A stretch of DNA of 64,000 bases from Streptomyces sp. NRRL WC-3618 (GTDB lineage: Bacteria > Actinomycetota > Actinomycetes > Streptomycetales > Streptomycetaceae): contig NZ_LGDW01000119.1 in the NCBI RefSeq assembly GCF_001280005.1, forward strand, positions 1 to 64,000, in the 5' to 3' direction. Made by a program: the position numbers and the translations under genes. Under the pieces are notes generated by a model. That model worked only from the letters and a program-made list of their open reading frames with translations, was not told the origin of the DNA and ran no database searches. Below are positions 22,258 through 58,289 of this stretch, in pieces; position 1 is the first letter of the stretch; each line of letters begins with the position of its first letter.

Positions 22258-23562
22258 TCAGGAGCCGGTCAGCAGCGCGAAGTTGTCGATGCCGAGCCAG
22301 AGTGCCACAGTCAGCCCGGCGAAACTCAGAATTGCTGCGGCGAAGCGCTGCCACGATACTCCCGCGAACCGGCGGCTGACGCGGACGACCGACAGCGCGG
22401 CGGCGGCCTGGAGCGCCACGATGCCCAGCGTGCCCAGGCCCAGCATGGTGGTGGTCATCCCGGTGTACGGATCTCGGCCGGCCAGAGCGAACCCCGCGAC
22501 CGCGGCGACGTTGAGCGCCGTCTGCACCAGTCCCGCCCGGTACGGCGAGGCGTGCCGAGGGTGCGACTCCGCGAGCGGAGCGGGCAGCAGACGGTCGCCG
22601 GCGAGGGTCTGGGCGTACCGGTTGGCGGCGCTGTGCAGCGCGAGGGTGGCGGCGAACAGGCTGGTGCAGAGCATGATCTGCATGCCCGTGGCGGCGGCCG
22701 AGCCCAGATAGGTGTCGGTGAGGGCGAAAAAGAGCCCGCCGAGCTGCCGGCCCGCCTCCTCGCGCACTTCGCCCACGCCCAGGGCGCCGACCGCGATCCA
22801 GCTGGTGAGCGCGTAGAACACGGTGATGAGGGCCACCGCGACATAGGTGGCGCGCACGACGCTGCGGCGCGGGTCCCTCGCCTCCTTGCCGTACAGCGCG
22901 GCGGACTCGAACCCGATGAACGAGATGGCGGCGAACATCACCGACACGCCGAAGCCGGGGCCGAACACCTCGTGCGGCGCGAACGACGCGGCAGGGAGAG
23001 CCGACGGGATTCCGTCACGGACGACGACGGCGACGTCCAGGGCGCACAGGATCGCCAGCTCGCCCACCATCATCACGGCCACGGTGCGCGCCCCGGACCC
23101 GATCTCGCGGTACCCGAGCCAGCCGACCGCGGCCGCACCGGCCAGCGCACAGACCCACCACGTCAGATGCGCGCCGTGGTCGGCCAGCGCCAGCGAGGTG
23201 AAGTAGCCGAAGGCCCCGAGCAGTCCGATCGTCGCGAGGTTGTAGGCGGCGACGGCGACATACCCGCTGACCACGCTCATCGGGCGGCCGAGCCCCTCCA
23301 TGGCGGCGGAGTAGAAGCCGCCGTGACCGCCGGTCCGGCGGGCGATCACGGCGTAACCGGCGGAGAAGCACAGCAGGACGAGTCCCGTCAGCACGAATGC
23401 GGCCGGAACCCCGGCGCCGTTTCCGAACGCGAACGCCAGCGGAACGGTGCCGGCCATCGCTGACAGCGGAGCGGCCGCGGAGACGATGAGATAGACGATG
23501 TGCCGGGTGGTGAGTGTCGGCGATCGTGTGGTCACCGTATTCGACGGAGCATGGTCGAGCAT
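22258..23562 (-). CDS. APC-superfamily amino-acid permease
   Basis: A 434-residue membrane protein with about twelve hydrophobic segments. The consensus start LTTRHIVYLIVSAAAPLSAMAG and the FIGFESAALYGKEARDPRRSV segment (substrate-site region and the conserved E-A-x-x-P loop) are typical of APC amino-acid transporters. ATG at 23562 follows GAGGAG by five bases. It lies between the regulators and the SARP gene; whether it imports a precursor such as serine or exports something cannot be told from sequence. No SARP-type repeat array precedes it. Confidence 0.85.
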   Translation of the reverse strand: MLDHAPSNTVTTRSPTLTTRHIVYLIVSAAAPLSAMAGTVPLAFAFGNGAGVPAAFVLTGLVLLCFSAGYAVIARRTGGHGGFYSAAMEGLGRPMSVVSGYVAVAAYNLATIGLLGAFGYFTSLALADHGAHLTWWVCALAGAAAVGWLGYREIGSGARTVAVMMVGELAILCALDVAVVVRDGIPSALPAASFAPHEVFGPGFGVSVMFAAISFIGFESAALYGKEARDPRRSVVRATYVAVALITVFYALTSWIAVGALGVGEVREEAGRQLGGLFFALTDTYLGSAAATGMQIMLCTSLFAATLALHSAANRYAQTLAGDRLLPAPLAESHPRHASPYRAGLVQTALNVAAVAGFALAGRDPYTGMTTTMLGLGTLGIVALQAAAALSVVRVSRRFAGVSWQRFAAAILSFAGLTVALWLGIDNFALLTGS

Positions 23563-23849: not shown

Positions 23850-24755
23850 GTGTTTCAGCAGGTTGCAGAGAATGTGAATCGTCCCAAGAGTGCGAGTATG
23901 TTGAGCTTCAGGCTTCTCGGGCCGTTGGAAATACGGGTCGGGGAGCGCGTGAGCAGGCTCGCCGGCGCAAGGCAGCGGACCCTGCTGGCCGTTCTGCTCG
24001 TCGACAGCGGACGGCTGCTCCCCGTCGAGCAGCTTTACGACGAACTGTGGGGCGAGACACCGCCGCCGACGGTGGGTAACTCCTTACAGGCGCACGTCTA
24101 TCGGCTGAGGCGTACGCTCAATGAGCTGTCGGACAGTCCGGCGACCCGCCCCCGGCTGATCACCCGCCCCTCGGGCTACGTTCTGGAACTCAACGGGGCC
24201 ACCGTCGACACGGATGCCTTCCAACGGTCGATCTCCCTGGCCCGCTCCCTCATGCACACCGATCCGGCCGCCGCCCACGCCCTGTTCGAGGAGGCGCTGG
24301 AGCTCTGGCAGGGCGACCCGCTGCAGGACGTGGTCCAGGGACCGATGTGCCGCAGCGTCGCCCTCCAGTTGAAGGAGGAGTACCTCACCGCGGTCGAGGA
24401 CAAGCTGTCGCTCGGCATCGACATCGCCGACCCGGTCCGCACCATCGGCGAGCTCAAGCGCATGAGCGTCGCCCACCCCTGGCGCGAACGGATCACCGAA
24501 CTCCTCATGCTCGCCCTCTACCGGGCGGGCCGTCAGGCGGAGGCGCTCGAGACCTACAACTGCGCCCGTCGTAGGCTCGTCGAGGAGCTGGGCATCGAAC
24601 CCTCCATCCAACTGCGGCAGCGGCTGCGGGAGATCCTCAACCAGGTGCCCGGCGTGAGCGGTCATCTGAACGCGCACAGGTCCAGAATCCCGGGGGCCGG
24701 CCACGATCAGTCGCTCGTGGTGCCGTCCGGCAGGATGCGGCCGAAGCCCGCGTAG
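23850..24755 (+). CDS. SARP-family transcriptional activator (probable pathway-specific regulator)
   Basis: A 301-residue SARP: an OmpR-type winged helix ([20 protein letters not shown], then [17 protein letters not shown] and [13 protein letters not shown]) followed by a bacterial transcriptional activation domain ([13 protein letters not shown] to [20 protein letters not shown]). GTG at 23850 has GGAG seven bases upstream. Codon 79 (24084-24086) is TTA, implying bldA dependence. SARPs bind direct repeats at 11-bp spacing upstream of -10 boxes; seven such arrays precede the cluster transcripts. The 3' end overlaps serS convergently by 49 bp. The 23563-23849 gap holds divergent promoters for this gene and the permease. 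Confidence 0.92.
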
Positions 24756-25987
24756 GGCACGAGAGCCTTGGGCAGCGCCACCGAACCGTCCGGCCGTACC
24801 CCCTGTTCGAGAAGCGCTGCCATCGTGCGTCCGATCGGCAGTGCGGAGCCGTTGAGTGTCACGACGGGTGATTTCCGGGAGCCCGGGCCGCGCAGGCGGA
24901 TGCCGGCCCGCCTCGCCTGGAAGGTGCCGCAGTCGGACACCGAGGAGATCTCCCGGAAGGCGCCGCCGCCCGGCATCCACACCTCGAGGTCGTATGTCAT
25001 CCGGGCCGAGAAGCCGAGATCCCCGGCCGGCAGCAGCACCACCCTGTACGTCAGCTCCAACGCCCGTAGGCATTCCTCGACATGGCTGACCATCAGCTCC
25101 AGTTCCCGCCGCGCGTCGTCCGGCGCGCACAGCCGGACCAGTTCCACCTTCTCGAACTGGTGCAGCCGCAGGATGCCCCGGCTGTCTCGGCCGTAGGAAC
25201 CCGCCTCGGCCCGGAAGCAGGGGGAGCGGGCGGTGACGGCGAGCGGCAGCTGCGCCGGGTCGAGCACCTCACCGGCGAACAGGTTCGTCAGCGGCACCTC
25301 GGCGGTGGGGATCAGCATGAGTTCCCGGTCGCCCACGCGCGTCGAGAACAGGTCCTCCTCGAACTTGGGTAGCTGCCCCGTGCCGGTCATCGTCTCCCGG
25401 GTCACCAGATACGGCACCGAGTACTCGGTGTAGTCGTGGGCGCCGGTGTGCAGGTCCAGGAAGAAGGCGGCCAGCGCCCGCTCCAGCCGGGCCCCGGCGC
25501 CGCGGGCCACCGAGAATCTGGCCCCGGACAGCCGGGCCGCGCGGTCGCCGTCCAGGATGCCCAGTGAGGCGCCGACCGCCGCGTGATGACGGGCCTCGTC
25601 CGCCGCGGCCGGCGGCGGGCCGCACCGGCGCACCTCCACCGCCTCGGCCTCGGTGCGCCCGTCGGGGACTTCGTCCAGCGGGATGTTCGGAATCGTCAGC
25701 AGCAGGTCGGAGAGGCGTTCTCGGGCGTCCCTGGAACGCGCCTCGGCCCTCTGTACCCGTTCCCGCAACACCCGGGCCGCCGCCCGCCGTTCCTCCGGGA
25801 CGACGTCCCGGCCGCCGCCCTTGGACGAGCGGTTGAGCTCCGCCCGCGCTCCGTCCATCTCCTCCGCCGCCGCGGTCCGCTCCCGGTACAGCGCCTCCAG
25901 CTCCTTCAGCCGCAGCGCGTAACCGCGCCGGGCGAGCCGGGCCACCGCATCCTCGCCCAGCGCCAGCAGCTCACGTGCATCGTGCAT
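24707..25987 (-). CDS. serS: Seryl-tRNA synthetase, cluster-associated copy (VlmL-like)
   Basis: A 426-residue class II synthetase. An N-terminal helical arm (about residues 25-110, rich in R, E and A) is the coiled coil that grips the long variable arm of tRNA-Ser. Catalytic motif 2 is [26 protein letters not shown] and motif 3 is [20 protein letters not shown] at 25987 has GGAAGGGA eight bases upstream. Last gene of the 11-gene operon, 41 bp after the KAS II gene. In valanimycin biosynthesis the cluster synthetase VlmL supplies Ser-tRNA to VlmA; a housekeeping serS should exist elsewhere. SerRS does not read the anticodon, which matters for the anticodon-less RNAs at 39635. Confidence 0.93.
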
Positions 25988-27522: not shown

Positions 27523-28539
27523 TCATAGGGCCTTCACGTCGGGCCAGACCAGCGCGGTCGCCCCCCACGTGAGGCCGCCGCCGAACGCGGTCAGCAGCAG
27601 CCGGTGGCCGGCCGTCAGGGTGCCCTCGGCGGCGGCCTGCGCGAGCAGCACCGCGAGTGACGCCGCCCCGGTGTTGCCCACCCGCTCGATGTTGGACAGC
27701 CGTCGCTCGTGCGCGATGCCCAGGTCGTCGGCGACGGTGGCCAGGATGCGGGCGTTCGCCTGATGCGCGGCGAACCGGTCGGCCGCCGCCGGAGTGTCCC
27801 AGCCCGCCGCCTCGGCGGCCTGCCGGGACGAGGTGGTCATCCGTTCCACCGCGTGCCGGTACACCTCGCGTCCGGCCATCCGGAAGAACTCCTCGCCGGG
27901 CTCCGGCGCGACCCCCGAGGAGCGCTGCCGTGAGCCGCCCGCCGGTACCTGGATCAGTCGGTTCAGCCCGCCGTCGCTGCCCAGCACCACCCGGCCGACG
28001 GCGCCGGGCTCGCTCGCGTCCCCGGCCCGCAGGACGACGGCTCCGGCGCCGTCGGCGAAGATCACCGCGGTGCCGCGGTCCTGCGGATCGATGATCGTGG
28101 TGAACGCGTCGGCGGCGATCAGCAGCACCCGCTCGGCCGTGCCGGAGGCGATGAACCCGGCGGCCGCGGCGAGGCCGTACAGGAAGCCGCTGCACACCGC
28201 CGACACGTCGAACGCCGCGACACCGCCCAGCCCGAGCCGGTGGGCCACGTCCGGGGCGGTGGCCGGGCATGGCCGGTCGGGCGTGGTGGTGGCCAGCACG
28301 ACGGCGTCCGCGCCGCCGCCGGCCGACTCCAGTGCGCGCCGGCCCGCCTCGACCGCCAGGTCGGAGGTGGCGACCCCGGGCGCGACCATGTGCCGGGTCG
28401 CGATCCCGGTCCGGGAGCGGATCCACTCGTCGGACGTCTCGAGGCGGCGGGTCAGTTCCTCGTTGGTCACCACGTCCGGCGGCAGGTGACACCCGATCCC
28501 GGCGATGACCGCCGCCCGCCCGCCGGACGCACCGCTCAT
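27523..28539 (-). CDS. Beta-ketoacyl-ACP synthase III (FabH-like)
   Basis: A 338-residue KAS III. The N-terminal IAGIGCHLPPDVVTN, the active-site Cys in DVSAVCSGFLYGLA, His in AAHQANARIL and Asn in ERVGNTGAAS are all present. It starts chain synthesis by condensing an acyl-CoA with malonyl-ACP. The ATG at 28539 overlaps the diiron-protein stop (ATGA). Its starter preference would fix whether the chain is straight or branched; sequence alone does not tell. Confidence 0.92.
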   Translation of the reverse strand: MSGASGGRAAVIAGIGCHLPPDVVTNEELTRRLETSDEWIRSRTGIATRHMVAPGVATSDLAVEAGRRALESAGGGADAVVLATTTPDRPCPATAPDVAHRLGLGGVAAFDVSAVCSGFLYGLAAAAGFIASGTAERVLLIAADAFTTIIDPQDRGTAVIFADGAGAVVLRAGDASEPGAVGRVVLGSDGGLNRLIQVPAGGSRQRSSGVAPEPGEEFFRMAGREVYRHAVERMTTSSRQAAEAAGWDTPAAADRFAAHQANARILATVADDLGIAHERRLSNIERVGNTGAASLAVLLAQAAAEGTLTAGHRLLLTAFGGGLTWGATALVWPDVKAL

Positions 28540-29543
28540 ACGGAGCCCCCGGTGCCGCCCAGCAGCTCCGGCGGCAGCCCCATGTACGCCATGCGGACCT
28601 CGGCCATCTGCTCGGTCCACCGCTCGGCCATGTCGTACCGCTGTTCGGGAGTGGTGTCGAGCATCCGTACGCCCGGCCAGATCTCGTAGTCGCCGATCCT
28701 GTCCGCGTGGGCGGCCATGCCCTCCTGGAAGAGCTTCTCGCGGTGGATCACGAACTCCCGGTCGGGGACCTCGTCCCACATCTTGACCCCGGCCTGGATG
28801 ATCTCCACGATCCGGTCCCGGGACTCGGGGTGCGCGGCCAGATGGTCCTTCAGGATCGTGCTCGCCACCGTCAGATGCCGGATCTCGTCGATCGCGGTGC
28901 CCCGGGAGATCTCGCCGGTCGCTGGGGAGAGCGGGGTCCACTTGCGCTCGCTCAGCTCGGCGGCGGGCGCCAGGACGCCCTCGATGACGATGGCGAAGAC
29001 GGCCACCCCGCCGGCGAAGTCCTGCTGCTCCCGCACGATCTCCAGGGTGAAGTCCACCACCGGCTGGAGCACCCGGGCGCGGTAGTCGGCGGAGAGTTCC
29101 GTCACGTCCCGCAGCAGGGTGTCGGCCGGCATGCCCAGCTCCACCAGGTGGTTGCGGAACACCCGGGCGTGCCGGGCCTCGTCGAGCAGTTGGGTCGCGT
29201 AGAACTCCATCTCCGGAATGCTCGGGGCGAGTTCGACGTACGGGGCGAGCAGCCGGGTGGCTATCTCCTCGGACACGCCGCGGAAACCGAACTCCAGGAT
29301 CAGCGCATCTCGCAGCGGACCGGGCTCCTTGAGGAAGTCCGGTACCCGCGCGTCCGCATGATGGCCTGTCACCCCTCGGTCACGCAGGGTGCCCTGGGCG
29401 ACCGAGGTGATCCAGTACGGGAGGTCGCAGTCGGTCGGCCCGAGGGTCAGCTGCATGGCGCCGTCCAGGAGCCCGGGAGCGGCGTCCCAGTCGGCCTCCG
29501 GAGCGACGGCTGCCTCGGTCCGGGCCGTGTTGTCGATGCTCAC
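28536..29543 (-). CDS. Nonheme diiron protein, probable azoxy synthase (VlmB-like)
   Basis: A 335-residue ferritin-like protein with two ExxH metal motifs, DEARH (residues 121-125) and DEIRH (219-223), plus glutamates at about 84 and 188 that complete a four-helix diiron site. For valanimycin, a membrane-bound hydrazine synthase and a diiron azoxy synthase act in sequence through hydrazine and azo stages; this protein and its operon partner at 30097 fit those roles. GTG at 29543 has AGGAG about ten bases upstream and overlaps the flavin reductase stop (GTGA). Assignment as VlmB-like rests on fold, length and neighbours, not on an alignment. Confidence 0.75.
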   Translation of the reverse strand: MSIDNTARTEAAVAPEADWDAAPGLLDGAMQLTLGPTDCDLPYWITSVAQGTLRDRGVTGHHADARVPDFLKEPGPLRDALILEFGFRGVSEEIATRLLAPYVELAPSIPEMEFYATQLLDEARHARVFRNHLVELGMPADTLLRDVTELSADYRARVLQPVVDFTLEIVREQQDFAGGVAVFAIVIEGVLAPAAELSERKWTPLSPATGEISRGTAIDEIRHLTVASTILKDHLAAHPESRDRIVEIIQAGVKMWDEVPDREFVIHREKLFQEGMAAHADRIGDYEIWPGVRMLDTTPEQRYDMAERWTEQMAEVRMAYMGLPPELLGGTGGSV

Positions 29544-30100
29544 AGTGCTGCTTTCTCCTTCTCCTTCGGATGGATCACGGAAGAGTCCGGCACCCACGGC
29601 GCATGCGCCACGTCCCTCCGGGGCGCGCCGGCCACCAGCTCACCGGCGTAGCTGAGCAGCGGCGCCCCGGACGGGCCCACGTCCGCCCGGACCACGAGCC
29701 CCAGCAGGACCTCGTGGTCGCCGACCAGGAGGCTGCCGCGCACCCGACAGGCGTAGTGCGCCAACGCCCCTTCCAGCAGGGGTGCGCCCGAGTACCGGTC
29801 GCGCCGCCAGGCGAGACCGTCGAACTGCGCGGCGCCCGCCGGGCGGTCGCGATCGGCGAACCGCCTGGCCACCGAGTCCTGACCGCCGCTGAGTACGTTG
29901 ACCGCGAACCGCCCCTCGACGAGCGCGAGGTGGACGAAGGACGAGCCCTCCTCAAGGCTCGCGGCGAGCAGTGGCGGCGCGTGCGACACCGTCGTCAGCG
30001 AGGACACCGTCGTCCCGTGCGTCCGCCCGTCATGACACACCGTCAGCACGGCGACCGGCGCCGCGAGCCGGTCCACCACGGTGGCGAAGCCGGCGTTCAT
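29540..30100 (-). CDS. Flavin reductase (VlmR-like, FMN-binding split barrel)
   Basis: A 186-residue protein of the flavin reductase-like family: LAAPVAVLTVCHDGRTHGTTVSSLTTVS at the start, FAVNVLSGGQ in the middle and the barrel strand VRGSLLVGDHEVLLGLV near the end. It would supply reduced FMN or FAD to the N-hydroxylase candidate at 32486, as VlmR does for VlmH. Start and stop overlap both neighbours by ATGA and GTGA. Confidence 0.87.
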   Translation of the reverse strand: MNAGFATVVDRLAAPVAVLTVCHDGRTHGTTVSSLTTVSHAPPLLAASLEEGSSFVHLALVEGRFAVNVLSGGQDSVARRFADRDRPAGAAQFDGLAWRRDRYSGAPLLEGALAHYACRVRGSLLVGDHEVLLGLVVRADVGPSGAPLLSYAGELVAGAPRRDVAHAPWVPDSSVIHPKEKEKAAL

Positions 30101-30627
30101 CGCACGACCCGTTGCGGCTCCCGGCGAGACGCCGGCAGGTGCCCCACGGGAACAGGGTCGCCTCCGTGGCCGACCGGTTTCGGGTGGGCGAGACCCAGGT
30201 CGTCCAGCAGCCGCAGATAGCCGTCCTGCCGCACCGGCTCGAAGGGCAGGGCGAACGACTTCATGAAGTTGCCGAACAGGCCCCGGTCGCCGAACAGATG
30301 GAACGGGATGGCCAACAGCGCCCACTCCGGCCCGGCCAGCCAGCACCACAGGCCGATCACGATGCCCTGGGTGATCAGGCTGTGCATCACGTTGTAGAGG
30401 ACGTAGTACGCCTTGTGGATGGGGCGGCCCTGGGCCCGCTTGAACGCGACGGCGCCCGGGATGTAGCCGATGAGGTCGATGTAGAGGAACAGCCCGACGA
30501 AGGGCAGCCATCGGATGTCTCCGAGGTGAGCGATGATCAGGCCCGTGGACACCGCGAAGCCGGCCAGGTATTCGGCGCGGTGCAGGGAGTAGGTCCGGGG
30601 GGTCTCGAACGGATTTGCCTGGTCCAT
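30097..30627 (-). CDS. Small integral membrane protein, probable hydrazine synthase (VlmO-like)
   Basis: A 176-residue protein with about four hydrophobic segments (roughly residues 20-35, 39-62, 76-98 and 100-115). Histidine and acidic residues sit at membrane edges: H16, H34, D36, D51, H71, H82, H110 and D114, suggesting a metal site. The last 30 residues are basic and Pro-rich. AGGAGG lies ten bases before the ATG at 30627. In valanimycin the N-N bond is made by a membrane-bound metalloenzyme acting before the diiron azoxy synthase; the pairing here, two genes upstream of the diiron protein, supports that role. Assignment is by size, topology and context. Confidence 0.65.
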   Translation of the reverse strand: MDQANPFETPRTYSLHRAEYLAGFAVSTGLIIAHLGDIRWLPFVGLFLYIDLIGYIPGAVAFKRAQGRPIHKAYYVLYNVMHSLITQGIVIGLWCWLAGPEWALLAIPFHLFGDRGLFGNFMKSFALPFEPVRQDGYLRLLDDLGLAHPKPVGHGGDPVPVGHLPASRREPQRVVR

Positions 30628-35344: not shown

Positions 35345-35382
35345 CTGATACGGAACTGACGTGGGGCTGACCCTGTTCTGAC
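35345..35382 (-). promoter_or_regulatory. SARP-type operator, four repeats (main operon)
   Basis: CTGAT at 35345 and CTGAC at 35356, 35367 and 35378 are spaced exactly 11 bp apart; read on the minus strand they are GTCAG x3 then ATCAG. Eight bases downstream lies a GTAAGA-like -10. This points toward the aldehyde dehydrogenase gene and the whole 11-gene operon. It is the longest array in the window. Confidence 0.85.
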
Positions 35383-35445: not shown

Positions 35446-36426
35446 ATGACCGAGACACTTCTGCACGCCATAAGGAACTGGACCGAGGCAGAAAACCCCA
35501 GTGCTTTTCTCGCGATGAACGACGACAAGGAGGTCTTCACCCTGCCCGGCGCAGAAGGAGTCGTGCTGCACCGGCAGGCCGGCCGGTATCTGGTGCAGTT
35601 CGGGGGCCCGTTCGCGCCGCCCGACTCCTACGACTCGCTGCTGGACGCCTTCCTCGCCCACGCCCGCCGACAGGGGCTTCGTGTGGTGGGTGTGCAGTTG
35701 CAGCGCTCCGACGCCGAGGCCTATGTCCGGCACGGCTTCACCGTCAACCAGATCGGCGCTTCCTGGGCCGTGCGGCTGCCTGAATTCAGCCTGCGCGGTA
35801 CGAAGTTCATGCAGCTGCGAAACAAGATCTCCCGGGCCCTGCGCAACGGGCTGAAGGTCCAGGAGGTCGAGGCCGGGCGCTGGCAGCACGCCATCGAGCA
35901 CATCGACTCGGCCTGGCTGAAATCGAAGGGAGAGAGCGCCCGTCCGCTGGAGTTCCTCGTCGGCCAGATCGGCGGCCCCGCGCAGGAACACCGCCGTCTC
36001 TTCCTCGGCACGATCGACGACGAACCGGTCGCCTACATCTCCTACTGCCCGGTCTACGGCAGCCGCGCGGGCTGGATGCACGACCTCAGCCGCCGGCTGC
36101 CGGGCGGCTCTCCCGGCCTGATGGAAGCCGTCAACGCGGCGGCGATCGAGATCTTCCGGGGTGAGGGAACGCCGTGGCTGCACTTCGGCTTCACTCCCTT
36201 CACCGGGCTCGACCCCGCCAGCGAGCTCCCGGGCCACAGCCCGGCCTTCAGCTGGCTGATGCAGTTCCTGTGGGCCGAGGGCGGCGCGTTGTACCCGGCG
36301 CAGACCCAGCTCGCCTACAAGGAGAAATGGGGGCCCGAGCTGGTGATCCCCGAGTACGTGGCCTTCGAGGGGCAGGCCTCGCTGCCGTCCTTCGCGCACA
36401 TCTTCCGCGCCTGCAACTCCTTCTGA
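35446..36426 (+). CDS. DUF2156 aminoacyl-tRNA-dependent transferase (VlmA-like seryl transferase)
   Basis: A 326-residue protein resembling the C-terminal domain of MprF lysyl-phosphatidylglycerol synthases: two GNAT-like halves, an FMQLRNKISRALRNGLKV basic stretch, then DLSRRLPGGSPGLMEAVNAAAIE and LHFGFTPFTGLDP, which matches the NLGxAPLxG region of that family. In valanimycin, VlmA moves serine from Ser-tRNA to an alkylhydroxylamine oxygen; this is the matching enzyme for the seryl-tRNA synthetase here and, I infer, the user of the tRNA-like RNAs at 39635. ATG at 35446 lacks a strong ribosome site. It is divergent from the main operon. Confidence 0.82.
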   Translation: MTETLLHAIRNWTEAENPSAFLAMNDDKEVFTLPGAEGVVLHRQAGRYLVQFGGPFAPPDSYDSLLDAFLAHARRQGLRVVGVQLQRSDAEAYVRHGFTVNQIGASWAVRLPEFSLRGTKFMQLRNKISRALRNGLKVQEVEAGRWQHAIEHIDSAWLKSKGESARPLEFLVGQIGGPAQEHRRLFLGTIDDEPVAYISYCPVYGSRAGWMHDLSRRLPGGSPGLMEAVNAAAIEIFRGEGTPWLHFGFTPFTGLDPASELPGHSPAFSWLMQFLWAEGGALYPAQTQLAYKEKWGPELVIPEYVAFEGQASLPSFAHIFRACNSF

Positions 36427-39493: not shown

Positions 39494-39520
39494 CTGATAT
39501 CCAACTGACTGTGCCCTGAC
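39494..39520 (-). promoter_or_regulatory. SARP-type operator (desaturase side)
   Basis: CTGAT at 39494, CTGAC at 39505 and CTGAC at 39516, exactly 11 bp apart. Minus-strand reading is GTCAG, GTCAG, ATCAG, pointing to the desaturase-MFS transcript. Confidence 0.82.
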
Positions 39521-39539: not shown

Positions 39540-39566
39540 GTCAGAGAGATATCAGCAGCGTGTCAG
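39540..39566 (+). promoter_or_regulatory. SARP-type operator (tRNA-like / DAG kinase side)
   Basis: GTCAG at 39540, ATCAG at 39551 and GTCAG at 39562, exactly 11 bp apart, on the plus strand and back to back with the desaturase array. The first tRNA-like gene starts 68 bp downstream, so these RNAs are likely transcribed under the pathway activator. Confidence 0.82.
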
Positions 39567-39634: not shown

Positions 39635-39726
39635 GGAGAGGTGCCCGGAGTGGTTATCGGGGATCGGGATTCGTCTCGGTCGGGTGGTTTTGCCCGCCTG
39701 CGCAGGTTCGAATCCTGCCCTCTCCG
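39635..39726 (+). tRNA. tRNA-Ser-like RNA without an anticodon loop, copy 1
   Basis: 92 nt that fold as a class II tRNA. The acceptor is GGAGAGG/CCTCTCC (7 bp) with G discriminator, and the D stem is CCCG/CGGG. The T arm is GCAGG-TTCGAAT-CCTGC, fully canonical. The variable arm, 39681-39687 with 39694-39700, is 7 bp as in tRNA-Ser. Where the anticodon arm belongs, 39663-39669 pairs with 39674-39680 around TTCG at 39670-39673, giving a 7-bp stem and tetraloop. A conventional 5-bp reading leaves a 6-nt loop, also abnormal. CCA is not encoded. SerRS could charge it, since it reads acceptor and variable arm. Inferred role: seryl donor for the DUF2156 enzyme. Confidence 0.8.
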
Positions 39727-39729
39727 CTT

Positions 39730-39821
39730 GGAGAGGTGCCCGGAGTGGTTATCGGGGGCCGGGATTCGTCTCGGTCGGGTGGTTTTGCCCGCCTGCGCAG
39801 GTTCGAATCCTGCCCTCTCCG
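39730..39821 (+). tRNA. tRNA-Ser-like RNA without an anticodon loop, copy 2
   Basis: A second 92-nt copy, three bases after the first (95-bp period). It differs at two positions only: 39758 A to G and 39759 T to C. Both lie in the replaced anticodon-arm stem and keep pairing (A-U becomes G-U; U-G becomes C-G), which suggests selection on the stem. All other arms are identical. It ends 60 nt before the DAG kinase-like ATG and is probably processed from that gene's leader. Confidence 0.8.
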
Positions 39822-39881: not shown

Positions 39882-40871
39882 ATGACCGAGGAGTCCCAGG
39901 CGCTCGTTCGGAGCGTGCTCGTCGTCGCCAACCCCGCTGCCGGAACCACGAGCGATCGGCTCACGGCAGACGTCCTCGCCGAGTGCGCGAACCGCGCGGC
40001 CGACGTGCGCCTGTACCGCACCACCGGTCGAGGCGACGCCACCGCGGCGGTGAGCGCGGCCCGTTCGGAAACCGTCGGGCACCGCGTGCCCGACCTGGTG
40101 GTGGCGGTCGGCGGCGACGGCACGGTGCACGAGGTGGTCGCCGGTCTCGTCGCCCAGGGTCCCGCGGCCCGCCCCGCACTGGCCATCGTGCCGGCGGGCA
40201 CCGGCAACTCCGGCTACAAGATGCTCTGGTCGGACCGCCCCTGGCGGACGGCGCTCACCGCTGTCCTCGACGGCCCCCGCCACGGCGCCCGACTGCGCCG
40301 CATCGACCTCGCCCACCTCACGGAGACCGGCGCGAAGGTGTTCCTCGGCGCCTGTTCCGGCGTCATCGCCGACGCCCTGAGGGTGGCGCGGTCGGTGCCG
40401 CAGAGTGGCCGCGACCGCTACACCACGGCCTTCGCCGATGCTGCCGCCGCCTTCACGCCGTATCCCGGCCGGGTCACCGTCGACGGCACGCCTCTGTACG
40501 AGGGGCCCACCGTGCTCGCCAACGTCGGCGGCGGGCGCTTCCGCGGCGGGCGCTACCAGGTGCTGCCGCACTCGGAACTGGACGACGGCCTGCTCGACGT
40601 CTGCGTCATCGGCTCGCCCATATCCCCCGCCGAGGTCCCTGAACTCACCCGACGCGCCGCCCACCTCGGTCTGCCCGGCGTCCACTACGGCCGCGGCCGG
40701 CGCATCGTCGTGGAGCGCCTCGACGGCGTACCCCTGTGCTTCGAGCACGACGGCAACCTCCAGCCTCCCGACCTGGCCCGGCTCACCTTCGAGGTGTTGC
40801 CCGGCGCCCTCCCGGTATGGGGCGCCGACACCGCCGTACTCGCCGCCCCGGCGGCCGAGGCGCGGGCGTGA
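39882..40871 (+). CDS. Diacylglycerol kinase-like protein (VlmJ-like)
   Basis: A 329-residue lipid-kinase-fold protein with VVANPAAGT and the catalytic VAVGGDGTVHEVV motif, then IVPAGTGNS. In valanimycin, VlmJ phosphorylates the serine-derived hydroxyl and VlmK eliminates phosphate to give the alkene. The next gene is a VlmK homologue with a GTGA overlap, which makes the same two-step dehydration very likely here. GGAGAG lies six bases before the ATG. The open frame upstream reads through the tRNA-like repeats and is not coding. Confidence 0.88.
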   Translation: MTEESQALVRSVLVVANPAAGTTSDRLTADVLAECANRAADVRLYRTTGRGDATAAVSAARSETVGHRVPDLVVAVGGDGTVHEVVAGLVAQGPAARPALAIVPAGTGNSGYKMLWSDRPWRTALTAVLDGPRHGARLRRIDLAHLTETGAKVFLGACSGVIADALRVARSVPQSGRDRYTTAFADAAAAFTPYPGRVTVDGTPLYEGPTVLANVGGGRFRGGRYQVLPHSELDDGLLDVCVIGSPISPAEVPELTRRAAHLGLPGVHYGRGRRIVVERLDGVPLCFEHDGNLQPPDLARLTFEVLPGALPVWGADTAVLAAPAAEARA

Positions 40872-42382
40872 CGCTCCTGGAGGAACTGTGCGCGTGGGCG
40901 GCCCGGTTGACGTACGACGACATCCCGGACCGGGTCCGTGCGCTGGCCGCCAGCCAGGTCCTGTCCCAGGTCGCGTCCATCAGAGCCGGAGCCGTCCACC
41001 CGCTGGGCGGCCGCATGATCGCCGCGTTCGGTGAGCCGTTCCAGCCCGACGCCCGGCAGGCCGCCTGTGTGCTGGCCGGACTCGGCTCGTGGCTCAACCT
41101 CGACGACACCGCGTACGCCGGACACCTCTCCAACTCGACGGTTGCCGTCCCCCTCGCGTTCGCCCACGCCCGCCGGCTGACCGGCGCCGCGCTGCTCACG
41201 GCGGTGGTCGCCGCCAACGAGTGCGCGGCCCGCGTCACCGCCGCCGCGACCCTCGGACCGCTGCGCGGACAGAGCGCGGTCCACACCCATCTGGTGGGCG
41301 CCGTCTGCGGACGGCTGCACTGCGAGGGCGTCAAGGATCCCAGGCGGTGGGCGGACGCCCTGGGCCTGGCCCTCGCCATGCCGCACCGGCCGCTGATGCG
41401 GGCGTTCCTGGCCAGCGACGCCCGGCTCCTGAACGCCTTCGCCCCGGTGCGGGCCGGCATGGACGCCTGCGACGCCGCCACCGCCGGACTGCGCGGCGCA
41501 CCGGATCTCCTGGAACACCCCGACGGCTTTCTCGCCGCGCTGGCCACGGTGCCGCTGCCCGACGAGGTCACCGACGGCCTCGGCCGGCGCTGGCACACCG
41601 ACACGCTGTCCTTCAAGATGCGCCCCGGCGGCCCCGGCATCGACGCGGCCGTGGACTGCGCCATCGACCTCCACCGCGAACTGCGGTCGGACGTCGGCCG
41701 GTCGGCCCCGCCCGTCGACCCGGCTTCGGTGGCGGAGGTACTGGTGGAGACATCCCTGTACACCCTGTACGCGGGCCGCCGTGCCGACCGCTACGTCACC
41801 GGCCCCGACGCACCCCTGGGCGCACTGGTGCTGCACACGCCCTACCCGGTCGCCACGGCGCTGCTCACCGGTGGCCTGACGGTCGCCGACTTCGAGCGGC
41901 CCGCCCTGGCGGACCCGGCCCGCTGGCAGCTGGCGCAGCGGGTCCGGCTCGCTCACGACCCCGCCCTCACCCGGGAACTGTTCGCGTCCGCCGCGCCTTT
42001 CGGCGCCGCGGTCCGCCGGGCGGGAGCCGCCGCAGAGCCCTGGCTGTTCGACTTCGGCGGCTCCGAGACCGCCCGCATGGCACTCGACGCGGCCGAGCCG
42101 CCCGAGCCCGACTTCACGGCCGCCACCAAGGCGACCGGCGCCCGCGTCACCGTACGCCTGCGTGACGGCCGCGCGTTCACCCGTGAACGGCTCGTCCCCC
42201 TGGGCGCCGCCGGCCCGCACACCCGGGCCTGTCACGACGAGCTGGTCCGGGAGAAGTTCGTGTCCCTCGGTGGTGACGTGGACACCGCGAAGGCCGCTGT
42301 CGAGCTCGGCGCGATGGGCGCTGTCCGACTGCGCGACTGGCTGCACGCGGCACTCGCCGTCCAGCGGCCCGCGCCGAGGTAA
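40868..42382 (+). CDS. MmgE/PrpD-family protein (VlmK-like)
   Basis: A 504-residue MmgE/PrpD-fold protein. The front helix region (LCAWAARLTYDDIPDRVRALAASQVLSQVASI) and the LDDTAYAGHLSNSTVAVPLAFAHA segment are typical of the family. Family members include 2-methylcitrate dehydratase; VlmK performs the phosphate elimination after VlmJ. GTG at 40868 overlaps the kinase stop. Paired with the kinase it should turn the seryl CH2OH into a methylene. Confidence 0.87.
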   Translation: MTLLEELCAWAARLTYDDIPDRVRALAASQVLSQVASIRAGAVHPLGGRMIAAFGEPFQPDARQAACVLAGLGSWLNLDDTAYAGHLSNSTVAVPLAFAHARRLTGAALLTAVVAANECAARVTAAATLGPLRGQSAVHTHLVGAVCGRLHCEGVKDPRRWADALGLALAMPHRPLMRAFLASDARLLNAFAPVRAGMDACDAATAGLRGAPDLLEHPDGFLAALATVPLPDEVTDGLGRRWHTDTLSFKMRPGGPGIDAAVDCAIDLHRELRSDVGRSAPPVDPASVAEVLVETSLYTLYAGRRADRYVTGPDAPLGALVLHTPYPVATALLTGGLTVADFERPALADPARWQLAQRVRLAHDPALTRELFASAAPFGAAVRRAGAAAEPWLFDFGGSETARMALDAAEPPEPDFTAATKATGARVTVRLRDGRAFTRERLVPLGAAGPHTRACHDELVREKFVSLGGDVDTAKAAVELGAMGAVRLRDWLHAALAVQRPAPR

Positions 42383-44613: not shown

Positions 44614-44640
44614 GTCAGTCGCCTGTCAGTTGGTTATCAG
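44614..44640 (+). promoter_or_regulatory. SARP-type operator (ACP-PKS-ligase operon)
   Basis: GTCAG at 44614, GTCAG at 44625 and ATCAG at 44636, exactly 11 bp apart, followed eight bases later by GTTTCGAT. It points to the ACP gene at 44683. Confidence 0.85.
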
Positions 44641-45000: not shown

Positions 45001-48000
45001 ATGTCCAGAGAGTCTGAGCCGAGGCAGGACGAGCTGGCCGCCGCACTGGCCGAGTTGCGGTGCGCGAAGGAAGAGCTCGCCGAGCTGACGCGTGAGAAGT
45101 ACGAGCCCATCGCCATCGTGGGAATGGGGCTGCGCTACCCGGGTGGGAACAGCAGCGCCGACGAATTCGCCGACTTCCTCCGGGAGGGGCGCTCGGGCAT
45201 CCGCGCCCTGCCGGCCGACGAGCGTCGGCAACTGGCGCCCGACCCCGAATCCGACAAGGGACCCACCGGGGAGCGGCCCAGCGGTGGCTTCCTGAACGAC
45301 GTCGACCGGTTCGACGCCGCCTTCTTCTCGGTGTCACCCAAGGAAGCCCCGTACATCGACCCCCAGCAGCGCCTCGCCCTGGAGACGGCCTGGGCGGCGC
45401 TGGAGCACGCGGGCATCGACCCCACCTCCCTGCGGCACGGCGACACCGGCGTGTTCATGGGCGTCACCACCCTCGACTACATCTTCGAATCCACCGACCT
45501 CGAGTCCGCCGATGTGGACGCCTACCTCGCACCGGGGCTGACCCACAGCGCCGTGTCGGGCCGGCTGTCGTACTTCCTGGGCCTGCGCGGGCCGTGCATG
45601 ACCGTCGACACCACCTGCTCCTCGTCCCTCACCGCGACCCACCTCGCCGTGCAGGCCCTGCGCGGCGGGGAGTGCGGCGTCGCGCTGAGCGGCGGGGTCA
45701 ACGTGATCCACAACGCGCACAACCACAACATCCTGGCCCTCGGCGGGGTCCTGGCCGCCGACGGCCAGTGCAAAACCTTCGACGAACGAGCCGACGGATA
45801 CGCCCGCGCCGAGGGTTGCGGTGTGCTGGTCCTCAAGAGGCTCTCCGACGCACACCGCGACGGCGACACCGTGCACGCCGTGATCCGCGGCTCCGCGGTC
45901 GGTCAGGACGGCGAGAGCGCGGGCCTGGTGGCCCCCAACGGCGCGGCTCAGGAACAGGTCATGCACTCGGCCCTGGCCCGGTGCCGCATGACACCCGCGG
46001 ACATCCAGTACGTCGAGGCGCATGGCACCGGCACCGCGCTCGGCGACCCCACGGAGATGGACGCGATCATCGACGTCTTCAGCCGGTCGCACACCACGGA
46101 CCGGCCTGTCGTCGTCGCCTCGCTGAAGACGAACTTCGGCCACATGGAGGGCGCGGCCGGGGTGGGCGGGATCATCAAGACGGCCCTCCAGCTGCGGGAG
46201 AAGGTGATTTTCCCGCACCTGAACCTCGTCACCCCCTCCCGCCGCATCGCCTGGGCCGACGCCCCCGTCACCGTCCCCACCGAGATCCGCCCGTGGCCCG
46301 CCGCCGACACCAGGCGCGCCCTGGTGAACGGCTTCGGTGTGACGGGCACCATCGCGTCGATCGTCCTGGAGGAGGCGCCGCCCTCCCCGGCCGCGCCCGA
46401 GCAACCCGAGCCGGCCGTCGACGAGCGTCCCGGCGAGCTGCTCACCCTCTCCGCCAAGAGCCGCAAGTCCCTGCGCGGGCTCGCCGAACGCCATCTCGAC
46501 CATCTCGCGCGCAACCGGGACCTGGCGGTCGCCGACCTGTGCCGGACCTCGAACATCGGCCGGGCACATTTCCGGCACCGGATCGCCGAGGTGGTGCGTG
46601 ACCAGGAGGGCGCCGTCCGGCTGCTACGCAAGCGGCTCGCGGCGCTCGAACAGGGGGATACCCGGGGAGGCGGATCCGGCGCCCCGAAGGTGGCGTTCCT
46701 CTTCCCCGGCGCTGGGGCGCAGTACCCCGGGATGGGCGCCGTGCTCTACCGGCAGTACCCCGCCTTCCGTACCGCTCTCGACGCGGCCGACCGCATCCTC
46801 ACACCGCTGACCGGAGTCCCGATCGGTGAGCTGGTGCGCGGCGAGTGCACCGCGCCCGAGCGCATCCACGAGGCCCGCTACCAGCAGCCCGCCCTGTTCA
46901 GCCTCGAATACGCCATGGGGCAGCTCTGGCTGTCCTGGGGCGTCCGCCCCTCCGTGCTGATCGGTCACAGCCTGGGCGAGTTCGCCGCCGCGGTGACCGC
47001 CGGCCTGTTCTCGCTCGAGGACGCCGCTCGTGTGGTGGCCGCCCGCGGACGGCTCAGCGACCGGGTGCAGGGCAAGGGAGGCATGGCGGCGGTAGGCGCG
47101 GCGGCCGCCGAGATCGCCCCGCTCGTCGAGGGGTACCCGGACCTGGTGATCGGCGCCGTCAACGGGCCCGGCCAGTGCCTGCTGACCGGGGGGAGCGACT
47201 CCCTGGCCGACGCACAAGGGCGCCTGACGGAGCGGGGCGTCAAGGTCACCCTGCTGCGGGGGGCGGCGCCCTACCACTCCCCGCTCATGGCGGAGATCGC
47301 CGACGAGTACCGCGAGGTGCTCGCCTCCGTGGAGTTCCACCCGCCGACCATGACCCTCGTTTCCAACGTCACCGGCCGCGTGGCCAGGGGCGGTGAGATG
47401 GGAAACCCCGAGTACTGGGTACGCCATCTGCTCGAACCGGTGCAGTTCGAGTCCGGTGTTCAGGCGGTGGCCAAGCGCGGACGGCACGTCTTCGTCGAGG
47501 TGGGCCCCTCGACCGCGCTCACCGCGCTCGCCAGGACCTCGGCGAGCGACCCGGACCACGTCTGGCTGAGCAGCACCTTCCGCGACGACCACGACGGCGA
47601 CATGATCCGCCGCTCGCTGGCCAAGGCGTACGAGGCCGGTGTTCCCGTCTCCTGGGCGGGATACCACCTGGGCGCGCCGCAGGGCAGGGTGACGATCCCC
47701 TCGTATCCGTTCGACGGGAAGCGGTACTGGCTGCCCACCCCGCAGCGCCGGGCGGCCGAGGCGGCCCGGCTGGCCGGAGGGCGGCCCGAGGAGGAGCGGG
47801 ACGCGAACGGCCGTCTGTTCTACGAGCAGCACTGGGTGACCCGGCCGCTGCCCGACAGCCGGCACGACAAGCGCCGCGTGCTGCTCCTCGGAGACCCGGC
47901 GAACCGGCCCGCCGCGTTGGAGAACGCCGCCGCCAGGGCCGGCGTCGACCTCGTCCTCGCGGCCGACGCACAGGCCCTGGGTGCCGCGCTGGACGAGGCG

Positions 48001-51186: not shown

Positions 51187-52668
51187 TCACTCCTGGACGT
51201 AGTCCTGCGGTGTGAAGACCGCCGTGCGCTCCCGGTACGTCCTGAGGTCGGACGGCCAGTTGTTGACCACCCTGCCGTCCGCCGTCTTGTACCAGCTCGC
51301 GCAGCCGGCGCTGAAAGCGGTCTTCGCCAGCTCTCGCTGGAGTTCCTCGTTGTAGCGCCGCTGCACCTCGGGGTCCACGTCCAGGCGCCGGGCCGGTTCG
51401 GCGTCGAGTGCCCGCAGCGCCTGCAGCACGTACGCGATCTGGTTCTCCACCATGAAGAGGATCGAGTGATGGCCCACGTTGGTGTTCGGGCCGTAGAGCA
51501 TGAACATGTTGGGAAAGCCGCTGACCGCCATACCGAGATACGCCTGGGGACCTTCCTTCCACACCTCGCGCAGCGACCGCAGATCCTTCCCGACGATCTC
51601 CACTCCACCGGTCCGGTCGAGCGGCTGGAAGCCTGTGGCGTGCACGATGACATCGACGTCGTGCCGACGACCGTCCGCGGTCCGAATGCCCTCAGGCTCG
51701 ATGCGGGTGATGCGCTCGGTGACGAGCTCGACGTTGTCACGGCCGAGCGCCGGGTAGTAGTCGTCGCTGATGAGCACCCGCTTGCAGCCGAACGCGTAGT
51801 CAGGGGTGAGCAGTTCCCGCAGCGGCCCGTCCGGTACCTGGGTCTCGAGCAGTTCCCCGGCCGCCTGCACGAACTGCGCACGGACAGGGTTGGCGTCGTC
51901 GCGCAGGCCGACGGCCCACCCGTCGCGCTCGTCGTGGAGAGCGTCGCGCATGGCCTGGTAACGGTCCGGCTCGGCGAGGAGGGCCGCGCGCTCCTCGTCG
52001 GAGAGCGCGCGGTCCTGACGGGCGAGCAGATAGTTCGCGGACCGCTGGAACACCGTCAGTCGCTCGGTCGCCGGGGCGATCGTGGGCACCAGCTGGACGG
52101 CGCTGGCCGCGGTGCCGATGCAGGCCACCCGCTTGCCGGTGAGATCGAGGTCGTCGGGCCAGCGCGCGGTGTGCGCCTGCACCCCCGTGAAGCTGTCCGC
52201 CCCTTCGATCCGCGCCAGAGCCGGCCTGCTGAGCTGCCCCCACGCCGTGATCAGGACCCGGGCACGCAGCCGCTCGCCGCGCGCGGTGAGCACGGTCCAG
52301 CCGCCCTCCCGCGGTGACCACGACGCCTGCGTGACCTCCGTGCCGAAGCGGATGTGTCCGCCGAGGTCATGGGTCTCGGCGAAGCGTTCGAGGTTGCGCA
52401 GGATCTCTGGCTGTCCGGCGTAGACGTGGCTCCAGTCGGGCTGCTCACCGAAGGAGTACCAGTACAGGTGGGACTGCACGTCGCAGGCAGCGCCGGGATA
52501 GGTGTTGTCACGCCAGGTGCCCCCGACCGACGAGGCCTTCTCCAGCACCCTGAACGAGTGCCGTCCCGCCTCCTTCAGCCGGGCGGCCATGCCGAGGCCC
52601 GACATGCCGGCGCCGATGATGACCACTTCATAGTCTTCGTCCACGGCTTTCCCTTCGTCGATCTTCAT
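51187..52668 (-). CDS. Flavin-dependent monooxygenase, Baeyer-Villiger type
   Basis: A 493-residue class B monooxygenase. FAD site VIIGAGMSGLGMAARL, the Baeyer-Villiger fingerprint FTGVQAHTARWP and NADPH site GKRVACIGTAASAVQLVP are present, as is the ATG(F) motif HATGFQPLD. It would insert oxygen next to a ketone. If PKS extension and decarboxylation give a methyl ketone, this enzyme could turn it into an acetate ester; N- or S-oxidation is also possible. An 11-bp repeat array lies just upstream. Confidence 0.9.
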   Translation of the reverse strand: MKIDEGKAVDEDYEVVIIGAGMSGLGMAARLKEAGRHSFRVLEKASSVGGTWRDNTYPGAACDVQSHLYWYSFGEQPDWSHVYAGQPEILRNLERFAETHDLGGHIRFGTEVTQASWSPREGGWTVLTARGERLRARVLITAWGQLSRPALARIEGADSFTGVQAHTARWPDDLDLTGKRVACIGTAASAVQLVPTIAPATERLTVFQRSANYLLARQDRALSDEERAALLAEPDRYQAMRDALHDERDGWAVGLRDDANPVRAQFVQAAGELLETQVPDGPLRELLTPDYAFGCKRVLISDDYYPALGRDNVELVTERITRIEPEGIRTADGRRHDVDVIVHATGFQPLDRTGGVEIVGKDLRSLREVWKEGPQAYLGMAVSGFPNMFMLYGPNTNVGHHSILFMVENQIAYVLQALRALDAEPARRLDVDPEVQRRYNEELQRELAKTAFSAGCASWYKTADGRVVNNWPSDLRTYRERTAVFTPQDYVQE

Positions 52669-52680
52669 CCGTCGCCCACT

Positions 52681-52720
52681 CTGATCACCGGTGCTGACCG
52701 GAGACTGAGCGGCGACTGAC
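52681..52720 (-). promoter_or_regulatory. SARP-type operator (monooxygenase)
   Basis: CTGAC at 52716, CTGAG at 52705 and CTGAC at 52694 are 11 bp apart; CTGAT at 52681 is 13 bp further. Minus-strand reading is GTCAG, CTCAG, GTCAG, ATCAG toward the monooxygenase start, which lies only 12 bp on, so the transcript leader would be very short. Confidence 0.7.
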
Positions 52721-52731
52721 GCTCGGCCGAC

Positions 52732-53222: not shown

Positions 53223-53249
53223 TTCAGTGAGCGATCAGGCACGTATCAG
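53223..53249 (+). promoter_or_regulatory. SARP-type operator (type II thioesterase)
   Basis: TTCAG at 53223, ATCAG at 53234 and ATCAG at 53245, exactly 11 bp apart, followed after eight bases by GATTGGAT. It points to the thioesterase at 53304. Confidence 0.8.
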
Positions 53250-57216: not shown

Positions 57217-58194
57217 TCAGGCCGTGAGGGTCCGCACGGTCGGCAGCATCGCCTCGGCGATCTTCTTCAACTGCGGCTCAGGACGCAGCGACCCGATCCG
57301 GACCACGATGTGCCGGGCCCCCGCCCGAACATAATCGGCCAGCCACTCGGCGCAGTGCTCGGCGGTACCCCAGGCGTACGCCTGGATCGCCGACATCTGC
57401 TCCAGCGTGCGGCCGTAGTAGTGCTCGATGTAGTGCTCCAGTTCCGCCTTCGCGCGGCCCTCGTCCGGGCCGACCGTGATCGTGGCGTAGAACCCGGGCG
57501 TCACCGCGCCCTCGGGGCGCCCGGCCTCGGCCCGCAACGACTCCAGCCGCCGCCAGGCCGCCCCGTACGCCTCGGCTGACGGCAGGAACGGCAGCCACCC
57601 GTCGTACAGCCGGGCCACCCGGTCCAGCACCCGGGGTGTGTCACTGCCCGCCAGCCATAGGGGGGGACCGCCCGGCCGGGGCGGGCGGGGCAGCCGGTCG
57701 AGCTGCCCGGCCTGCCAGTACCGTCCGCTGAACGCCTCGTCCCCCGCTTCACCCCAGGCGGTCCGCCACAGCGCGACGGTCTCGTCGAGCCGTCCGGCAC
57801 GCCCCGTGAACGACGCGCCCACGGCAGCGAATTCGGCCTCGGTCTCGGGGACCGGGAAACCCGACCCCAGACCCATGATCAGCCGGCCCCCGCAGACATG
57901 GTCGAGGCTGCTCACCATGTTGGCCCCGATGAGGGGATGCCGGAGCGCCGGCGTGAGTGCGGCGGTCCCGAGCGTGATGGATCGTGTCACCGCGCCGGCC
58001 GCGGACAGCACCACCAGCGGGTCGAGCCGGGGCCGTGCGGTCAGCGAGTCGCCCGTCCACAACGAGTCAAAACCGAGTCCCTCCGCCTGGCGGGCGAACT
58101 CCAGCAGCGGAGAGGCGGTGAAGTCGCCGAGGATGGCCTGCTCACGGGTCGGCAGCAGGACACCGAGACGGGCGGACTGATCGGGGATCGCCAT
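57217..58194 (-). CDS. Luciferase-like (LLM-class) flavin-dependent oxidoreductase
   Basis: A 325-residue bacterial-luciferase-fold protein: LLEFARQAEGLGFDSLWTGDSL, ITLGTAALTPALRHPLIGANMVSSLDHVCGGRLIMGLGSGF and PLWLAGSDTPRVLDRVARLYDGWLP. ATG at 58194 has GAGAGG seven bases upstream. First gene of a three-gene operon under a SARP array, so it belongs to the cluster by regulation. It may oxygenate, or reduce with F420, a late intermediate. Confidence 0.88.
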   Translation of the reverse strand: MAIPDQSARLGVLLPTREQAILGDFTASPLLEFARQAEGLGFDSLWTGDSLTARPRLDPLVVLSAAGAVTRSITLGTAALTPALRHPLIGANMVSSLDHVCGGRLIMGLGSGFPVPETEAEFAAVGASFTGRAGRLDETVALWRTAWGEAGDEAFSGRYWQAGQLDRLPRPPRPGGPPLWLAGSDTPRVLDRVARLYDGWLPFLPSAEAYGAAWRRLESLRAEAGRPEGAVTPGFYATITVGPDEGRAKAELEHYIEHYYGRTLEQMSAIQAYAWGTAEHCAEWLADYVRAGARHIVVRIGSLRPEPQLKKIAEAMLPTVRTLTA

Positions 58195-58262: not shown

Positions 58263-58289
58263 CTGACGCGCGACTGACCTGCGCCTGAG
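58263..58289 (-). promoter_or_regulatory. SARP-type operator (luciferase-like operon), right edge of regulon
   Basis: CTGAC at 58263, CTGAC at 58274 and CTGAG at 58285, exactly 11 bp apart; minus-strand reading CTCAG, GTCAG, GTCAG, followed after eight bases by GTTTGGAT. This is the rightmost array. Confidence 0.8.

Follow-up and report, generated by a model that had tools for sequence, protein, structure and literature searches.

VlmA condenses a hydroxylamine with seryl-tRNA, according to the accessible parts of three reports (PMC12945691, PMC9379638, PMC11705231). How an aminoacyl-tRNA escapes translation to supply the valanimycin enzyme is stated to be unknown in the accessible text of a further paper (PMC4052509), and a 2022 survey of azoxy clusters, as far as its text is accessible, names SerRS, VlmJ/VlmK pairs and others as recurrent neighbours, with no tRNA gene among them (PMC9379638). 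The present work concerns a stretch of 64,000 nucleotides from Streptomyces sp. NRRL WC-3618 (contig NZ_LGDW01000119.1; hereafter the window), in which an azoxy cluster surrounds two tandem genes for putative RNAs resembling tRNA-Ser. The pair are members of a conserved family of predicted tRNA-Ser-like RNAs in which a closed hairpin replaces the anticodon arm, and we consider it quite probable that these RNAs are charged with serine, hand it to the VlmA-type transferase and are unable to decode mRNA.

The RNA pair and the surrounding cluster

Direct reading of the sequence bears out much of a preliminary description of this locus: both copies are 92 nt long and lie in tandem with a period of 95 bp, and each has a perfect 7-bp acceptor stem (GGAGAGG/CCTCTCC), the T loop TTCGAAT and G73 as discriminator. 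A D arm with GG, a variable arm and a T arm are all present; the anticodon arm alone is absent. The hairpin closed by TTCG that was said to stand in its place is indeed there, with a stem of 8 bp in the fold rather than the 7 bp first given, and the variable arm, also put at 7 bp, folds as 6 bp. Just two bases distinguish the copies (39663-39664 versus 39758-39759); as had been noted, both lie inside the hairpin and both preserve pairing, A-U becoming G-U and U-G becoming C-G.

Unconstrained minimum-energy folds, of the exact 92 nt and of stretches shifted by one base, contain the D arm, the TTCG hairpin, the variable arm and the T arm. The folding energy is unexceptional and is weak evidence: for the shifted stretches the z-scores are -1.5 and -1.7, and 20 and 15 of 200 shuffles are equally stable. 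The case for an RNA was therefore built on relatives. Existing tools give the pair no settled name. ARAGORN calls both copies tRNAs of undefined type with an 'anticodon' of 2 nt, and Rfam, run with an E-value threshold, assigns copy 1 to tRNA (33.8 bits, cut-off 29) and copy 2 to tRNA-Sec (35.2 bits, below the cut-off of 47). An Rfam scan of the whole window at gathering thresholds returned no entries.

Table 1. Features of the window discussed in the text, with positions counted from its first nucleotide
Feature	Position	Strand	Basis or remark
Amino-acid permease	22258-23535	-	adjoins the SARP and SerRS genes
SARP regulator	23949-24755	+	Trans_reg_C and BTAD domains
Second (cluster) SerRS	24707-25987	-	both SerRS domains; TIGR00414 above cut-off
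VlmB homologue	28536-29543	-	alignment; named VlmB-like in related records
VlmO-like protein	30097-30627	-	place beside VlmB and recurrence in related clusters; no match in Pfam or NCBIfam
VlmA-type transferase	35515-36426	+	PF09924 (DUF2156)
SARP-operator-type triple TCAG repeat (putative)	39541-39566	+	11-bp period, 5' of the RNA pair; geometry as in the accessible part of PMC10936776
tRNA-Ser-like RNA without anticodon arm, copy 1 (predicted)	39635-39726	+	sequence, ARAGORN, folding
Hairpin at anticodon-arm position, copy 1	39662-39681	+	8 bp; loop TTCG at 39670-39673
tRNA-Ser-like RNA without anticodon arm, copy 2 (predicted)	39730-39821	+	sequence, ARAGORN, folding
Hairpin at anticodon-arm position, copy 2	39757-39776	+	8 bp; loop TTCG
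VlmJ-type kinase	39882-40871	+	DAGK_cat and YegS_C domains; directly 3' of the RNA pair
VlmK-type protein	40868-42382	+	MmgE/PrpD

The surrounding genes (Table 1) are those of an aliphatic azoxy cluster, with a PF09924 protein, a VlmB homologue identified by alignment, and flavin reductase and acyl-CoA-dehydrogenase-like genes; the labels VlmO and VlmH in the window rest on place and recurrence. The preliminary description was right that the cluster has its own SerRS and DUF2156 transferase, and the cluster SerRS is 38% identical to the genome's other SerRS. APC permeases recur in related clusters.

Conservation of the family and its association with VlmA and VlmB

A DNA search of 199 genomes (that of the window and its relatives) matched the RNA over its full length in 10 other genomes, the remaining matches being mostly short T-arm stretches. 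Plasmid records yielded further copies, two of them in the gap beside a DUF2156 gene, in a cluster with a 'VlmB-like protein'. The identities that ARAGORN assigns to these relatives are scattered (Met, Ala, Ser, Leu, Arg, Val, Asp, Cys and undefined), as expected when the anticodon is missing.

Among the first 34 distinct sequences the letters of the acceptor, D stem and T stem are near-identical, and the hairpin at the anticodon position varies in length and sequence. Its stem is GATCGGGA/TCTCGGTC in the window, GTCCGG/CCGGAC with the loop GAAA in Saccharothrix (L173) and TTCCTG/CAGGAA in Actinokineospora. When these 34 sequences were aligned, 98.0% of cells were paired and 6 of 24 pairs had changed on both sides; none of 500 shuffles matched the observed pairing or covariation score. 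For a second set of 31 distinct sequences, which was fitted to the covariance model, the figures are 98.4% and 5 of 24; counts from an alignment fitted in this way (A4) lean toward the structure.

One might suppose that RNAs of this kind are relics of tRNA-Ser whose anticodon was lost by decay. Decay of the anticodon arm does happen, as in a tRNA-Ser(GCT)-like gene near serS in two genomes (G027 and G009; loci L302 and L301), and the family itself has one decayed member (L226). The compensatory changes in the hairpin, an acceptor and T arm that are nearly invariant across five actinobacterial families, the conserved operator and the tandem duplication all speak against relics, an explanation that we find hardly credible.

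The tRNA-Ser(GCT)-like gene is a separate one. In several Streptomyces it adjoins SerRS-like and HAD-type genes (named from their translations). Its GCT anticodon is normal in L300 and L303; L302 (1501-1587, minus strand) has a 3-nt loop on a 7-bp stem and L301 (1501-1606, minus strand) a rearranged arm, and these two represent a loss of the anticodon independent of that in the family.

In total 175 records were gathered, which hold 149 distinct copies free of N; L140, with a masked run of N, was excluded from sequence counts, and L170, a 26-bit match that is itself a tRNA-Gly, was removed before counting. G73 is present in all 149 distinct copies and the acceptor sequence of the window in 144. 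By pattern, GG18-19 of the D loop is kept in 148, and the canonical letters of the T loop are kept too. An encoded CCA follows G73 in 21 of 140 copies free of N, so that most copies would need to have it added. The loop of the first hairpin, in 149 constrained folds, has 3 nt in 24 copies, 4 in 71, 5 in 44, 6 in 6 and 7 in 4; loops of 3–5 nt thus account for 139 of 149, and the 71 tetraloops include 21 GNRA and 11 UNCG. The four 7-nt loops belong to L061 and L037 (A33), L272 (C33) and L156 (T33; one arm of its fold is rearranged).

These folds also bear on whether the second hairpin might be the true anticodon arm and the first an insertion, making the RNA a class I tRNA that still decodes. 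The sequence CCTGC that precedes the T arm in the window can be read as a short variable loop, in favour of that arrangement. Nevertheless, all 149 constrained folds place two hairpins between the D and T arms; the second has changing pairs and small loops (CTC in L061), like the variable arm of a class II tRNA, and neither loop holds a consistent triplet. A decoding class I tRNA is, in our judgement, extremely improbable.

Other observations concern single records. One copy (L226, 301-398, in G360) is degenerate, scoring 63.8 bits with an altered T arm. In plasmid records L034, L060 and L061 the locus tags skip one number at the RNA (e.g., OG844_RS00465, OG338_RS00150, OG295_RS00755). This suggests that an RNA gene is annotated at that point in the original records, possibly with an incorrect tRNA name. 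Viral contigs searched with a T-arm/acceptor pattern gave three loci: in L002 the pattern lies inside a named ordinary tRNA-Ser, and in L001 and L003 it falls outside the genes named by ARAGORN.

To define the distribution of the family, a covariance model (R1) was run over 392 Streptomyces genomes. Matches of at least 63.8 bits formed a strong set, found in 51 genomes; all other matches scored 57.8 bits or less. With no more than 10 candidates scored in each genome, copy numbers in this survey are lower bounds. VlmB was present in 58 of the same genomes. Both occurred in 45, the RNA only in 6, VlmB only in 13 and neither in 328 (Fisher p = 1.5e-40, a value that overstates independence, the genomes being related). 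The RNA, which the preliminary description had proposed to look for in Streptomyces azoxy clusters, is present in 45 of 58 VlmB genomes. The six RNA-only genomes all have a VlmA homologue, about 40% identical in two of them, while at E 1e-15 none was found in six control genomes without the RNA. Every one of the 51 Streptomyces bearers accordingly has a cluster of VlmA/VlmB type.

The reverse does not hold: 13 of the 58 VlmB genomes are without the RNA, which shows that VlmA-type chemistry can run without it. In these 13 loci (L186-L198) VlmA is present, no R1 match occurs in the 20 kb fetched and no SerRS lies in the fetched piece; ten of them have the most divergent VlmB (44–49% identical). 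These RNA-less clusters may use an ordinary tRNA or another amino acid.

Beyond this survey, 80 VlmB loci from named records were fetched. The RNA lies within 10 kb of VlmB, inside the fetched piece, in 39; for the other 41, whole-genome searches detected it in 18 of 20 and 19 of 21 genomes, giving 76 of 80, the exceptions being L104, L123, L168 and L174. Bearing genomes have one to fifteen copies and include Streptomyces, Kitasatospora, Actinokineospora, Saccharothrix, Actinosynnema, Actinocrispum, Actinomadura, Sphaerisporangium and Micromonospora, representing five families (Streptomycetaceae, Pseudonocardiaceae, Thermomonosporaceae, Streptosporangiaceae and Micromonosporaceae). Most of the examined actinobacteria with an azoxy cluster also carry the RNA.

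Of 97 loci, 41 include a SerRS gene. The RNA lies in the same piece in 21 of them and is absent from it in 20; 18 of these 20 have the RNA elsewhere in the genome, a total of 39 of 41. Among 43 RNA-bearing loci 22 have no SerRS in the fetched piece, so charging cannot rest on the cluster SerRS alone. The SerRS genes, together with the unvarying G73, also weigh against a carrier of some amino acid other than serine: host tRNA-Ser shares G73, whereas host tRNA-Tyr and tRNA-Leu have A73. Another amino acid would fit the weaker R1 matches, since among 30 inspected in 20 genomes 19 were tRNA-Tyr and only 6 tRNA-Ser (with 2 tRNA-Cys and 3 odd), and would fit the alanyl-tRNA proposed for azodyrecin in the accessible text of PMC9379638. 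We consider such a carrier very unlikely.

Putative operator repeats and dispersed copies

Operators of SARP regulators, in the accessible part of the study used for comparison, are direct repeats 11 bp apart (PMC10936776). The same arrangement, direct repeats 11 bp apart and upstream of a -10 region, is found by sequence 5' of the RNA pair and marks a putative operator. Read toward the RNA, the TCAG repeats are followed by a stretch such as CACTGT, and some 40 nt separate this from the RNA. At least two TCAG repeats occur within 150 nt 5' of the RNA in 132 of 140 scorable copies, a count that leaves out non-first tandem copies and copies with less than 120 nt upstream. The same repeats were found in 183 of 20,000 random stretches (0.9%), which were drawn from fetched loci that themselves hold such clusters.

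In the window the triple TCAG pattern has 9 matches (one with a mismatch) against 0.14 expected. They precede an aldehyde-dehydrogenase operon, a desaturase gene, the RNA pair, a PKS gene at 45001, genes at 51187-52668 and 57217-58194, and a thioesterase gene at 53304. The triple repeats are likely to mark a SARP regulon of about 35 kb and, with it, the putative extent of the cluster. The triple repeats at 35345-35381, 39494-39519, 44615-44640, 52694-52730, 53224-53249 and 58263-58288 stand ahead of six genes or operons other than the RNA pair.

Copies of the RNA are not confined to clusters. Whole-genome searches counted 15 each for S. griseofuscus DSM 40191 and S. misionensis, many of them far from the cluster; the genome of the window, by contrast, shows just the tandem pair. 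Comparison of the neighbourhoods of 13 copies showed no gene family in common beyond pairs of loci. Within each of five genomes, pairwise homology begins at a median of 61–78 nt upstream of the RNA (0 to 207 for single pairs) and stops at a median of 1–3 nt past it (up to 57 for single pairs), with a median identity of 80–84%. The dispersed unit, as delimited by these alignments, is the putative operator plus the RNA, the flanks being mostly unrelated. Some dispersed copies are decayed (L226) or without the operator pattern (L210).

Units of this kind might belong to a selfish, SINE-like repeat that derives from a tRNA, is propagated along with its own promoter and contributes nothing to the pathway. 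As many as 15 scattered copies in a genome, homology that stops at the operator and just past the RNA, and neighbouring families unshared beyond pairs of loci are what such a repeat predicts. Yet copies that have diverged to the median identity given above still keep fold and operator, every multi-copy genome in the survey has VlmB, copy numbers are low in most bearers and a copy lies close to VlmB in 39 of 80 VlmB loci. We hold a selfish repeat to be highly improbable.

Several individual copies may be recorded here. L210 (in G466) has an intact RNA, and TCAG repeats are absent upstream. In S. griseofuscus DSM 40191 (G484:C1) two copies recur with equal scores near both chromosome ends (30.5–33 kb and 8.688–8.690 Mb), as if in terminal inverted repeats. 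Two plasmids carry a copy whose listed neighbours include no azoxy gene: S. collinus pSCO1 (L036, 16001-16095) and a plasmid of Streptomyces sp. NBC_00158 (L059, 10001-10091).

Predicted function and relation to known RNAs

SerRS does not read the anticodon. The RNA keeps the features that SerRS and a Fem-type transferase would be expected to recognise and lacks those needed at the decoding site, its occurrence follows the transferase and its putative operator follows the operons of the cluster, which together argue for a dedicated seryl carrier. Ordinary tRNA-Ser genes for the GCT, TGA, CGA and GGA anticodons are present in the host, which therefore would not need the anticodon-less RNA for decoding. 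G73 and context are the grounds for a serine identity, and we infer from sequence that the RNA is charged and used by VlmA. Dedicated seryl carriers unable to decode, the reading put forward in the preliminary description, are favoured as the best interpretation, given family-wide loss of the loop, tracking of VlmA/VlmB and the shared operator.

If this is correct, the SARP of the azoxy cluster would activate the biosynthetic operons and, along with them, both local and dispersed copies. After trimming, and addition of CCA to those that do not encode it, the transcripts would be serylated by the cluster SerRS if the cluster has such a gene and otherwise by the ordinary SerRS. VlmA would then move serine onto the hydroxylamine intermediate. 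A charged RNA with no anticodon would spend no serine at the ribosome, and would thereby constitute a private carrier pool for the pathway.

The RNA might alternatively be a charged decoy or regulator that occupies SerRS or ties up serine, slowing translation or signalling how much serine is available during production; VlmA would then draw on ordinary Ser-tRNA. An inducible operator and features that face SerRS are equally expected of a decoy, and the accessible text of one report has VlmA taking serine from seryl-tRNA, such an RNA being unmentioned there (PMC12945691). A general decoy, however, should occur elsewhere, and the RNA is found only with VlmA/VlmB-type clusters (all 51 Streptomyces bearers); its link to the transferase would also be left unexplained. 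We therefore think a decoy unlikely.

One candidate for a mark against EF-Tu was dropped. The pair A51-U63, linked to weak EF-Tu binding in the accessible part of PMC4052509, is present in 148 of 149 copies; it is not distinctive, being shared by 2 of 10 distinct ordinary tRNA-Ser. The RNA, with its D-loop GG and T-loop letters retained, may still bind EF-Tu.

Returning to the seryl carrier, we regard it as likely that tRNAs without an anticodon form a new RNA class: a lineage of inducible amino-acid carriers for small-molecule biosynthesis, often scattered and yet within one SARP regulon, which provide a private charged pool for a single pathway. Its members are built on the body of a class II tRNA, with a predicted function. 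No description of a tRNA-Ser-like RNA lacking the anticodon arm was found in the accessible literature that was searched, and an account may exist beyond it; the preliminary description, too, knew of no such tRNA in an azoxy cluster. The carrier role would offer a direct answer to how an aminoacyl-tRNA is withheld from translation and given to a biosynthetic enzyme. It would mean a natural tRNA freed from decoding, which pathway engineering could use as an orthogonal seryl donor. The RNA also serves as a short tag by which azoxy clusters can be recognised in sequence, and its dispersed copies are RNA genes across the chromosome that appear to belong to the regulon of one gene cluster.

The family resembles bacterial tRNA-Ser (class II) in its 7-bp acceptor, D arm with GG, long variable arm, T arm and G73. 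It differs in having no 5-bp stem with a 7-nt loop, T33 and a serine anticodon, the loops in the window being TTCG; T precedes the anticodon in 10 of 10 ordinary tRNA-Ser, and among 149 family members one modelled 7-nt loop has T33 (L156, in its rearranged fold). Both allo-tRNAs and tRNA-Sec are class II, serylated and of unusual shape. Class II structure and an unusual shape are shared with tRNA-Sec, to which copy 2 gave its match below the cut-off, but tRNA-Sec has a 6-bp D stem with a 4-nt loop (accessible text of PMC7609411) and the RNA a D stem of 4–5 bp and a 7/5 acceptor/T branch. Like tmRNA, which the accessible text of PMC3985003 describes as charged, it has a tRNA-like body and no anticodon; unlike tmRNA, it is 92 nt in all, has no mRNA (tag-encoding) part and carries G73. 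ARAGORN searches for tmRNA as well and lists none in the window, and ribosome rescue by the anticodon-less RNA is not expected. Closest in its predicted carrier role is the non-proteinogenic tRNA-Gly of Staphylococcus aureus, set aside as donor for a Fem-type transferase in FemX-type cell-wall synthesis. That tRNA, in the accessible text of PMC4052509, avoids translation by weak EF-Tu binding and changes in the D loop, whereas in the family described here GG18-19 is kept and it is the anticodon loop that is gone.
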